This document shows positions 18,849 through 21,233 of a DNA stretch of 34,725 nt, one piece after another (the first letter of the stretch is position 1; every line of letters starts with the position of its first letter). This DNA comes from an uncultured Xenococcaceae cyanobacterium (GTDB lineage Bacteria; Cyanobacteriota; Cyanobacteriia; Cyanobacteriales; Xenococcaceae), in the NCBI GenBank assembly GCA_937996665.1, contig CALKUU010000079.1, positions 1 through 34,725 on the forward strand, given 5' to 3'. The translations under genes were made by a program, and so were the position numbers. Under the pieces are notes generated by a model. That model was not told the origin of the DNA. It saw only the letters and a list, made by a program, of their open reading frames with translations, and ran no database searches.

Positions 18849-18881
18849 AAACCCAAATAAGCATTATGCTTATTTGGGTTT
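18849..18881. terminator. bidirectional terminator shared by the protease and the 57-aa gene
   Basis: AAACCCAAATAAGCAT (18849-18864) and ATGCTTATTTGGGTTT (18866-18881) are exact inverted copies, with T-rich (TTTACATTTTTT) sequence on the plus side. The stop codon of the convergent 57-residue gene (complement of 18870-18872) is inside its right arm. Confidence 0.88.
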
Positions 18882-19043
18882 ACATTTTTTAGCCCTAATT
18901 AAACCTACTCGCTTGGCTAAAGCCTCGGCTAATGTCGGATACTTTCCCCAATAATCTTGATCTTGAGGATTTTTTAGAGTTTGCAAAATATCACAAGTTC
19001 CATCTGGTAGCTTCACAATGTACCAATCTTCAGAAGTTGCCAT
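18870..19043 (-). CDS. small conserved hypothetical protein (57 aa)
   Basis: ATG at 19043 (minus) opens a 57-residue frame: MATSEDWYIVKLPDGTCDIL near the start and YWGKYPTLAEALAKRVGLIR, then AKKCKPK at the end. The 'WYIVKLP-G-C-I...WG-.. EA-A-RVGLIRAGKC' pattern is one I know from short cyanobacterial proteins of unknown function, so I regard this as a real conserved gene. It is soluble. An AGATAGAG stretch upstream is a weak ribosome-site candidate. It converges with the protease gene, and its stop codon lies in the shared terminator stem. Such a short gene is easily missed by automated gene callers. Confidence 0.75.
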   Translation of the reverse strand: MATSEDWYIVKLPDGTCDILQTLKNPQDQDYWGKYPTLAEALAKRVGLIRAKKCKPK

Positions 19044-19097: not shown

Positions 19098-20702
19098 TCA
19101 ATCTTGATTAAGATCTTTGTTGTTAGCAGTCCACCAGGCTAAACCATAATTTTGTCGTGGTTCATTGATCTGTCGACGATAGTTAACTCTAATTTTATAA
19201 CGTCCAGTTTTAGGAACAGGGCAAAAAATATGTTCAACACTGTCTTCATAGCTAAGAGAGGAACAAATATTACGAAGACTACTAGATTCATCGGCAGGAA
19301 TCAGATAAAGATCCAAATTATTTAGTCCGCGATCGCGAAAAGTTTCCCCGACATCAAATTTATCGTTATTGTTGAGATCATTTAGTTTTACTAAACGATC
19401 CCAAGTTAAAGTAATCATGGCATAGGTTCCAGCTTGAAGAGGCTGTTGCAAATAATAATCTTGATCTTCTTGAGCATTAATTTGACCATAATTCCAGCCA
19501 ATTGATGGAGCTAATTGTTCTGAAGAAATTTGACCACTACTAAATTGCCGATAAGCTCTAAAAGCATTAAGCTGCCCAGTACCCATTTGAATGTCTAAAG
19601 GAATACGAGGGTTGCGATAAGCATCAGAATCAAACCAAGTCTTATTGTGCTCACTCACCGTCGTATGAGTCATATCTAAAAGAGAACCGTCCCCTTGATC
19701 TGCAATTTTATCAGCCGAGTTAAGCAGGATCGCTTTCATAACCTCATGTCTACGAGCATTGATTGACCAATTTTCAAGATTTTGACTAATTTGTCGATCC
19801 CCATACTCTTGAAGCAAAGCAACAGATGCCGTTATATGGGGAGCAGCAAAACTTGTGCCACTGACTTTTTCTAATTTACCTTTCTGATTCGGAACAAAAA
19901 TTTGACTACCAGGGGCTAATAAACTGATTGCTCGGCGATCGCCATAATTAATCTCTTTTCTAATCGTAGAACGACCAATGCCAATAGGCAGAGCGCTAAG
20001 GTTAGCAAAATCAACTTTGAAAAACTGGTTTTTGCGCTTAGTTGTATAAGCAGTAGTGACTCCATTGAAATTATCAGTAGGAATCGGAATACCCCCTTTC
20101 CCCTGATTGCCAGCGATAACATACAAAGTATCGTGAACTCTGGCTGACCAATCAACACATTCTGTCAACAAGGCTTTGCCATCTAATTTTGCTTCTTCCC
20201 GAGAATCTCGCTCCAAAGATTCGCCAAAACTAAAATTAATCGCTCTAATATCTCCAGAATTTTGAGATGCAATATGTTGACTTGCTAAACATTCTTCTGG
20301 CTGACCTCCATCACGAAAAGAGCCAACTGCGGTTGCATATAAACGAGCAAGAGGAGCAACTCCTTTCCCATTCTTATTTTGACTAATCATCACACCGGCA
20401 ACCATGACAGCATGATTATCAACATCAGTATCTGCTCTAGCTATTTGATCTCTAAAAAAAACTGCCTTAGGTAAAACTTGATTAAGTTGCGAGACTACTT
20501 TATCAATCCCTAATTTACCTGGTCTGCCAATTTCTACCTGACCAATCCCAATTTTTCTTCCCAGCAAATTGTAAGGAGAATTATGCAGTCGCAACGCATC
20601 AATACCAGCATCACTCAATGAATAATTTAGAGCAAGAGCTGAGGGAATAGTCCCGCCAACTAAAACAGCACAACCAAGTAATTTGATAATTTTATTCATC
20701 AT
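19098..20702 (-). CDS. exported subtilase (S8 family) with a Glu in place of the catalytic Asp
   Basis: From ATG at 20702 the protein has 534 residues (the frame is open to a TTG at 20747, which I consider unlikely) and starts with a signal peptide, MMNKIIKLLGCAVLVGGTIPS. The S8 domain shows DNHAVMVAGVM (catalytic His), VIAGNQGKGG (oxyanion Asn) and GTSFAAPHITASVALLQ (catalytic Ser). The usual Asp of 'AVIDTG' is Glu in IGIGQVEIGRPG. The C-terminal part (SIGWNYGQINAQEDQDYYLQQPLQAGTY... ending TGRYKIRVNYR) resembles a PPC-like beta domain, also seen in other exported cyanobacterial proteins. It probably acts outside the plasma membrane. Substrate unknown; catalysis may be altered. It stands alone. 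Confidence 0.88.
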   Translation of the reverse strand: MMNKIIKLLGCAVLVGGTIPSALALNYSLSDAGIDALRLHNSPYNLLGRKIGIGQVEIGRPGKLGIDKVVSQLNQVLPKAVFFRDQIARADTDVDNHAVMVAGVMISQNKNGKGVAPLARLYATAVGSFRDGGQPEECLASQHIASQNSGDIRAINFSFGESLERDSREEAKLDGKALLTECVDWSARVHDTLYVIAGNQGKGGIPIPTDNFNGVTTAYTTKRKNQFFKVDFANLSALPIGIGRSTIRKEINYGDRRAISLLAPGSQIFVPNQKGKLEKVSGTSFAAPHITASVALLQEYGDRQISQNLENWSINARRHEVMKAILLNSADKIADQGDGSLLDMTHTTVSEHNKTWFDSDAYRNPRIPLDIQMGTGQLNAFRAYRQFSSGQISSEQLAPSIGWNYGQINAQEDQDYYLQQPLQAGTYAMITLTWDRLVKLNDLNNNDKFDVGETFRDRGLNNLDLYLIPADESSSLRNICSSLSYEDSVEHIFCPVPKTGRYKIRVNYRRQINEPRQNYGLAWWTANNKDLNQD

Positions 20703-21014
20703 TGCAAATATAGAGGTAGCCTTAAAATGTCTAGAAAACAGAATCAATAACTAATAATTTTCGGAAAAACTTGCACATTTTGACCAAAATGAGCTAAAAG
20801 TATGTGGAGTTGTTTTGCTTATCGCATGTTTCAGTAAAGCAAACCAATAATCTAATCTAATTCAGAGTAATAAGCAATTCAGAATAGTAATTAATTCCCA
20901 ATAATTGTAATTCTCTGACAGATTAAGTAGGTCTCTATTCGAATCGACAAGAAAATAATTTTGACCGAAAAAACCTTAATAACATTATGAAAAACTAAAA
21001 AAATCTTAGAAACT

Positions 21015-21233
21015 ATGTCTAAACAAGTTGCGCATCCAATGGTGAAACTTCAGCGCAAAATTTCCTCACTTGTCCATTCCAAAATCGTTACTCCAGAAGA
21101 TAATTTGAGTAAGATCGCTCTGTTACTTGGGGCTGATTGGAAGTATTGGAAAAATGAATTATTAGAATTTGATTTTTCTCTCAAAGATCCAATTCAAGAA
21201 CTTTTGTTAGTAGAAGACTGGGACGAAGAATAA
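21015..21233 (+). CDS. small cyanobacterial conserved protein (probable DUF4327)
   Basis: A 72-residue protein with HPMVKLQRKISSLVHSKIVTPEDN, then LSKIALLLGADWKYWKNELLEFDFSLKDP and the acidic end LLVEDWDEE. It matches my recollection of the DUF4327 family of short cyanobacterial proteins; function unknown. It looks soluble and helical, with no signal peptide. It begins at the only nearby ATG and lies 45 bases before rsmB on the same strand, so a small operon is possible. The family name is from memory. Confidence 0.8.
   Translation: MSKQVAHPMVKLQRKISSLVHSKIVTPEDNLSKIALLLGADWKYWKNELLEFDFSLKDPIQELLLVEDWDEE

Follow-up and report, generated by a model that had tools for sequence, protein, structure and literature searches.

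The gene at 19098..20702 on the minus strand of the window, that is, of the whole 34,725-nucleotide stretch analysed from a contig of an uncultured Xenococcaceae cyanobacterium, encodes a protein of 534 amino acids that is probably exported and active as a serine protease, with a subtilase fold and a Glu-His-Ser triad, and not a dead homologue. The cyanobacterial subgroup that carries glutamate at residue 57 is genuine and old, and selection on it is strong. Glu-His-Ser subtilases are a kind already known, named the E-H-S family, a point on which an earlier note on this DNA was silent. As far as was found, the apparently new elements are the extent of the cyanobacterial group, the absence of space for a propeptide, the exchange of aspartate and glutamate at the acid position and the frequent head-to-head pairing of the gene with rpe.

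In the mechanism proposed, Ser284 would attack the peptide bond with His97 as the general base, while Asn199 and the backbone would form the oxyanion hole. Glu57, where the first core strand ends, would orient and charge-balance His97 in the manner of Asp32 in subtilisin. The protein would leave the cytoplasm by means of its signal peptide, fold without the usual propeptide and presumably act in the periplasm, in the thylakoid lumen or outside the cell.

The gene and its product

The gene was delimited from its open reading frame and its orthologues. Its ATG lies at 20702, within an open frame that starts upstream at a TTG at 20747. The protein matched the Pfam family Peptidase_S8 (PF00082) with 63.5 bits against a cut-off of 21.8 over residues 90-337 (19692..20435, minus strand); this match leaves out the Asp motif, since it starts only at profile position 49. 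A C-terminal PPC domain was matched at residues 459-506 (19185..19328, minus strand). The four motifs quoted in the earlier note read as given there, namely GQVEIGRPG (Glu57), DNHAVMVAG (His97), IAGNQG (Asn199) and GTSFAAPH (Ser284). Glu57 lies within KIGIGQVEIGRPG and is encoded by GAA at 20532..20534; from the alignments and orthologues it is assigned to the place of the catalytic aspartate, Asp32 of subtilisin. The putative catalytic base His97 is encoded at 20412..20414, the oxyanion-hole residue Asn199 at 20106..20108 and the nucleophile Ser284 at 19851..19853. Ser158 of the motif INFSFG (20229..20231) is the alignment-inferred counterpart of subtilisin Ser125. All of these codons are on the minus strand. 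Two further S8 matches were present in the source genome (G000, 4.15 Mb), one with an ordinary VIDTG motif (L001) and one cut by a contig end before the part that would hold the acid motif (L002).

Conservation of residue 57 and the active site

Of 235 translated sequences, 205 were unique and at least 450 amino acids long and were kept as alignment rows; Glu57 was present in 192 of them. The window gene occurred twice in this set (as itself and as L004) and was counted once, leaving 204 distinct orthologue rows, of which 191 had Glu at residue 57, 12 had Asp and one (L221) had a gap. After thinning at 90% identity the figures were 148, four and one (n = 153). Both glutamate codons were used, GAA 155 times and GAG 37 times across the 205 rows. 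Glutamate at the usual place of the aspartate, as first read from the window alone, is therefore genuine, and the orthologues rule out a sequencing error or a local mutation. The suggestion that VEIG might define a subgroup is likewise upheld by the 191 of 204, the gene being an orthologue usually present in one copy per genome in the cyanobacteria that have it. Among the fragments dropped from the alignment were L058, which is frame-broken and whose open piece has Lys at column 57, and the short L218 and L220; L073 and L228 fall short of column 57.

His97, Asn199, Ser284 and Ser158 were each invariant in 204/204 covering rows, as was Asn156 in the rows covering it, in orthologues with identities to the window protein down to 45%. 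The residues beside the triad follow another pattern from that of ordinary S8 proteins. The residue after His97, which is Gly in ordinary S8 proteins, was Ala in 195 rows and Ser in nine, so that the HGT motif is altered to HA.MVA and variants in the orthologues, and the residue after the acid was mostly Ile, Val or Leu, as against Thr or Ser. Because of these replacements after the His and the acid, the pocket differs from that of active subtilisins, a point against activity. As a control, ordinary and kexin-like S8 frames from the source genome and related genomes were inspected at the acid position: Asp was found in 43/45 and Glu in 0/45, the strand being missed in 2/45. These 45 frames are those of 61 loci that had both HGT and GTS patterns and, having been chosen by an HGT-type pattern, speak for ordinary S8 proteins only.

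The non-canonical acid, the altered HGT motif and the lack of a visible propeptide are what a pseudoprotease might display: a protein like the Csp germination pseudoproteases that had retained the fold for a binding or signalling role, with Glu57 as the sign that catalysis was gone. Subtilase pseudoproteases such as CspC have been described, and eight putatively inactive homologues have been counted among 227 (PMC2605481). A dead site should, however, drift, and the triad drift of the CspA/CspC kind was not seen in the orthologues, in which the acid varies between Glu and Asp only. Since the other catalytic residues are frozen, loss of catalysis is unlikely. Residue 57 is under strong selection to remain a carboxylate, be it the longer or the shorter of the two.

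Glutamate at the position of the catalytic acid

Profile alignments were made with hhalign against 27 ordinary and 14 kexin-like S8 proteins taken from the 45 control frames, four of which were omitted. Both global alignments, and the local one with the kexin-like set, paired Glu57 with the catalytic Asp. The local alignment with the ordinary set begins after the Glu57 strand and is uninformative on this residue.

An AlphaFold2 (AF2) model of the mature protein had a mean pLDDT of 81 and a pTM of 0.87. In mature numbering it has a strand at 26-32 followed directly by Glu33 (Glu57), with His73 (His97) in a helix at 72-82. The pLDDT was below 50 for mature residues 33-67, too low for the model to show the presumed contact between Glu57 and His97. 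A model of the catalytic domain was poorer (mean 59.5). The closest structural match was the subtilase KP-43 (VIA Z 31.8, rmsd 3.1, 364 aligned residues, 21% identity), with SubHal at 31.6; among the 50 matches listed, VIA Z ranged from 23.5 to 31.8. KP-43 and SubHal (1wmd, 5fax) aligned over nearly the whole model at about 20% identity. Both have a C-terminal beta domain and both carry Asp. The subtilisin fold of the window protein is thus supported by AF2, the VIA matches and the Pfam family. The hhalign results, the end of the AF2 strand and the fact that the nearest solved structures are subtilases together argue that Glu57 is placed at the acid position.

Other acids were considered as partners of His97. 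Asp67, ten residues past Glu57 (20502..20504, minus strand), showed no amino-acid change on the tree and is probably structural; it was invariant in 204/204 covering rows, as were Asp184 and Asp210. It fell on the catalytic Asp in none of the hhalign alignments and is rejected as the catalytic acid. In the global alignment with ordinary S8 proteins it lay on the second Asp of DTGVD, four residues after the catalytic one, and in those with the kexin-like set it lay elsewhere. The idea, based on spacing, that it is the counterpart of the Asp in the HPDL motif was not borne out by these alignments. Asp95, two residues before the catalytic His (20418..20420, minus strand), was replaced by Glu, Gln or Ala in 19 rows, with eight changes on the tree, and is rejected as a strict substitute acid. 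Asp95 and the invariant Asp210, which follows the oxyanion Asn, might favour basic substrate residues if subtilisin and kexin numbering applies; furin-like basic specificity was considered on that footing and is not claimed.

A partner acid other than Glu57 has a precedent in the sedolisins (S53), which belong to the same fold superfamily and in which the acid has moved to the segment of the base. They use a Glu base with an Asp four residues later on its helix, and in kumamolisin Glu32 is described as hydrogen-bonded to its catalytic Asp82 (PMC11593635). Such an arrangement, with Asp67 or Asp95 serving the His, would draw on the constancy of Asp67, Asp184 and Asp210 on the tree, on the closeness of Asp95 to His97 and on the poor modelling of the stretch from Glu57 to Asp67. 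In the cyanobacterial protein, however, the base is His97 and residue 101, four residues after it, was Val in 204/204 covering rows; there is no Asp at this place, and a sedolisin-type triad is rejected. The loss of Asp95 in some rows and the failure of Asp67 to align on the catalytic Asp also count against the idea, while Glu57 exchanges only with Asp, as a catalytic acid should. A substitute acid is accordingly very improbable. An alternative Asp aligned to the catalytic position, which the earlier note had named as evidence against its reading, was found neither by hhalign nor on the tree. Among the acids examined, none fits better than Glu57.

Exchange of glutamate and aspartate

A quick tree with SH-aLRT supports only was built from 134 rows, thinned at 85% identity with every Asp row retained and with columns 55, 57 and 95 excluded. 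The Asp rows belong to one family (f9), in which the gene was present in 14/14 genomes. Its 13 distinct sequences formed a single branch with an SH-aLRT of 100, 12 of them with Asp and one with Glu (L235, from G527). The fewest amino-acid changes at residue 57 on this tree were two, from Glu to Asp in this family and the reverse in a single species, and both are forced by well-supported branches alone. Since the tree is unrooted, the direction from Glu to Asp to Glu rests on the presence of Glu in all other branches. Site 57 requires 24 codon changes against two amino-acid changes, the median of 494 columns being 21 changes.

The codon in L235 is GAG, whereas seven close sisters, 91-94% identical to it, have GAC. 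L235 differed from these seven at 14 private positions, residue 57 among them. This back-and-forth swap within one lineage suggests that both residues do the same job. It is also a natural experiment, with Glu in one homologue and Asp in seven: the cost of Asp versus Glu in a serine-protease triad could be gauged in backgrounds that evolution, and not engineering, has supplied. No prior account of a natural Glu/Asp/Glu exchange in closely similar backgrounds was found among open-licence papers.

Signal peptide and propeptide

Residues 1-24, ending in SALA (20631..20702, minus strand), were recognised by inspection as a signal peptide, so that the mature protein is predicted to begin at residue 25, with Glu57 as mature residue 33. 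A home-made rule, which admitted no distance shorter than 24 residues, picked out a signal-peptide-like stretch 24-51 residues before residue 57 in 203/204 orthologue rows. Counting the signal peptide, the window protein has 56 residues ahead of Glu57. The propeptide of subtilisin is given as about 75 amino acids (PMC9549277). In most orthologues there would be no room for one of that size, because the median distance from the first in-frame Met to residue 57 is 57 residues, the distance being over 100 in two of the 188 rows with such a Met. A visible propeptide is thus absent, and a short or unrelated chaperone segment may yet take its place. A propeptide is usual and not strict in secreted S8 proteins, AspA being described as a subtilase without one (PMC9549277). 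Even so, most active secreted subtilases need a propeptide, and that none is visible here counts against reading the protein as an active protease.

Relation to known subtilases

The abstract of the 2007 survey by Siezen, Renckens and Boekhorst reportedly mentions a subset of subtilases with an equivalent Glu in place of the catalytic Asp. That survey is cited elsewhere for the division of subtilases into mostly D-H-S enzymes and the E-H-S family (PMC3937732), for the distinction between D-H-S and sedolisin ED-S types (PMC9549277) and for Asp-to-Glu substitution in prokaryotic subtilases as already observed (PMC2827410). A characterised member of the E-H-S family is SprP of Pseudomonas aeruginosa, with a predicted triad of E262, H299 and S499 (PMC3937732, PMC4618607). 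According to these two papers SprP is an active protease that gave halos on skim milk and cleaved Suc-AAPF-pNA, the S499A variant giving no halo; it has a broad pH optimum of 7-8 and prefers basic and hydrophobic tripeptides. Its triad Glu is predicted, and the triad mutation described is that of the Ser (PMC3937732, PMC4618607).

The cyanobacterial protein resembles SprP in having Glu, His and Ser at the three S8 motif positions and in its signal peptide. The spacing from acid to His is 37 residues in SprP (Glu262 to His299) and 40 in the cyanobacterial protein. SprP differs in its 233-amino-acid N-terminal domain before the S8 domain, and the cyanobacterial protein in its C-terminal PPC domain; the two are likened by their triads, with no implication that the Glu is of common descent. 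With MEROPS family S8 (subtilisin, D-H-S) the protein shares the predicted fold, the residue order, the His, Asn and Ser and the motif GTSxAxP, and is unlike it in having Glu for Asp, Ala or Ser for Gly after the His and no space for a propeptide. No experimental study or assay of the cyanobacterial Glu57 group was found among open-licence papers. A 'sll1488, peptidase' is named in a thylakoid-lumen study (PMC7880944) and may or may not be the Glu57 subtilase gene.

The earlier note had left two courses side by side, that Glu replaces Asp functionally or that the enzyme is slow or regulatory. The first is favoured because residue 57 exchanges with Asp alone and SprP is active, and the His, Ser and Asn are fixed; the second fared less well. 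In its specific form it describes a slow or conditional, site-specific enzyme in which Glu is less effective or suited to another pH and so restrains a protease that lacks the propeptide as a restraint. This would explain why Glu persists nearly family-wide though Asp is one base away and is tolerated. In family f9, on the other hand, nearly all distinct sequences (12 of 13) have Asp together with an unaltered His, Asn and Ser, and the reported optimum of SprP is an ordinary one, so that such an enzyme is quite unlikely as the explanation. A slow or pH-tuned enzyme is possible all the same, and is the more interesting variant. It can be extended to an ancient, single-copy, propeptide-less E-H-S protease, often found beside rpe, in which Glu was selected for slower or pH-set activity in the periplasm or thylakoid lumen; this is a speculative picture and rather doubtful. 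If activity were tuned in this way, the lineage that passed from Glu to Asp and back to Glu would record a change in tuning.

Distribution

Matches were found in 92/100 related genomes, the window's own counted among the 100, and in 181/291 genomes sampled from the class; a rule by which a subtilase lacking the Asp is filed as dead would misplace a gene of this spread. Among 244 genomes sampled from the phylum 78 had matches, every one of them (78/78) inside the class. Of the 92, one genome (G090) had a weak hit only and one (G042) pieces only. Many of the match-free genomes among those listed were of 1.6-3.0 Mb, and some were of 5-7 Mb (family f2); the gene was absent in the f2 genomes listed. 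That the gene is not kept everywhere, being in pieces in G042 and missing from these f2 genomes, counts against an active protease, whereas its retention in two small genomes of Epithemia endosymbionts (L079, on a contig of 2.79 Mb, and L136, 3.07 Mb) counts in favour of one.

In G042, a single contig of 3.8 Mb, three short pieces in different frames lie at C1:176193-177034 (L073, L222); they lack the N-terminal half and represent a decayed copy. In L221 (G251:C103) the family match is confined to the C-terminal part, and a contig end lies about 140 bases upstream, so that the assembly may lack the S8 part. Its protein runs on into a Calx-beta-like stretch and then short repeats, both names being guesses.

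The best 80 of 273 confirmed relatives had cyanobacterial titles except for two metagenome bins, L077 (titled Gracilibacteria) and L110 (titled Tatlockia), with the gene at 62 and 58% identity respectively. The tree placed L077 among cyanobacteria, and it is probably mis-binned. A plasmid search gave no match at E 1e-5, and under looser limits 80% of the protein was not covered at any place in a phage or plasmid record; the highest coverage shown was 58%, at 26% identity to an annotated S8 peptidase. Viral contigs held two weak relatives (24 and 36% identity). Links with defence and with phages were considered and rejected: the PADLOC hits were to a generic subtilase model (E 2.2e-10) and, weakly, to IetS models, and those in PHROGs to 3677, labelled 'protease' (E 7.2e-15), and to 3964, whose function is unknown (E 1.3e-4).

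Genomic context

The subtilase gene stood head-to-head with the Calvin-cycle gene rpe (ribulose-phosphate 3-epimerase, named from its sequence by the analyst) in 62/80 named loci, or 21/31 once the loci were thinned at 80% identity; in the other 18/80 there was no rpe within the stretch examined. The pairing lies upstream of the match in loci L074-L153, for example at L078:5125-5830. In 59/62 paired loci the gap between the two matches was 110-508 bases. A repeated word, TTAACAAA/TTTGTTAA, occurred in 39/57 thinned gaps against 10 or fewer in 20 shuffles, which ignore kinship, and in the examples inspected it lay near the rpe end of the gap. The pairing may reflect co-regulation or old synteny.

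Scans of six sources for Rfam families gave tRNA only. The tested neighbours of the window gene were unconserved, a DUF4327 gene recurring in 5/80 loci, one further ORF in 4/80 and the others in one or none. In the window the DUF4327 gene (21015-21233, plus strand) is divergent from the subtilase gene, and an ORF of 57 amino acids, beginning MATSEDWYIVKLPDG, lies directly downstream of the subtilase gene (18870-19043, minus strand).
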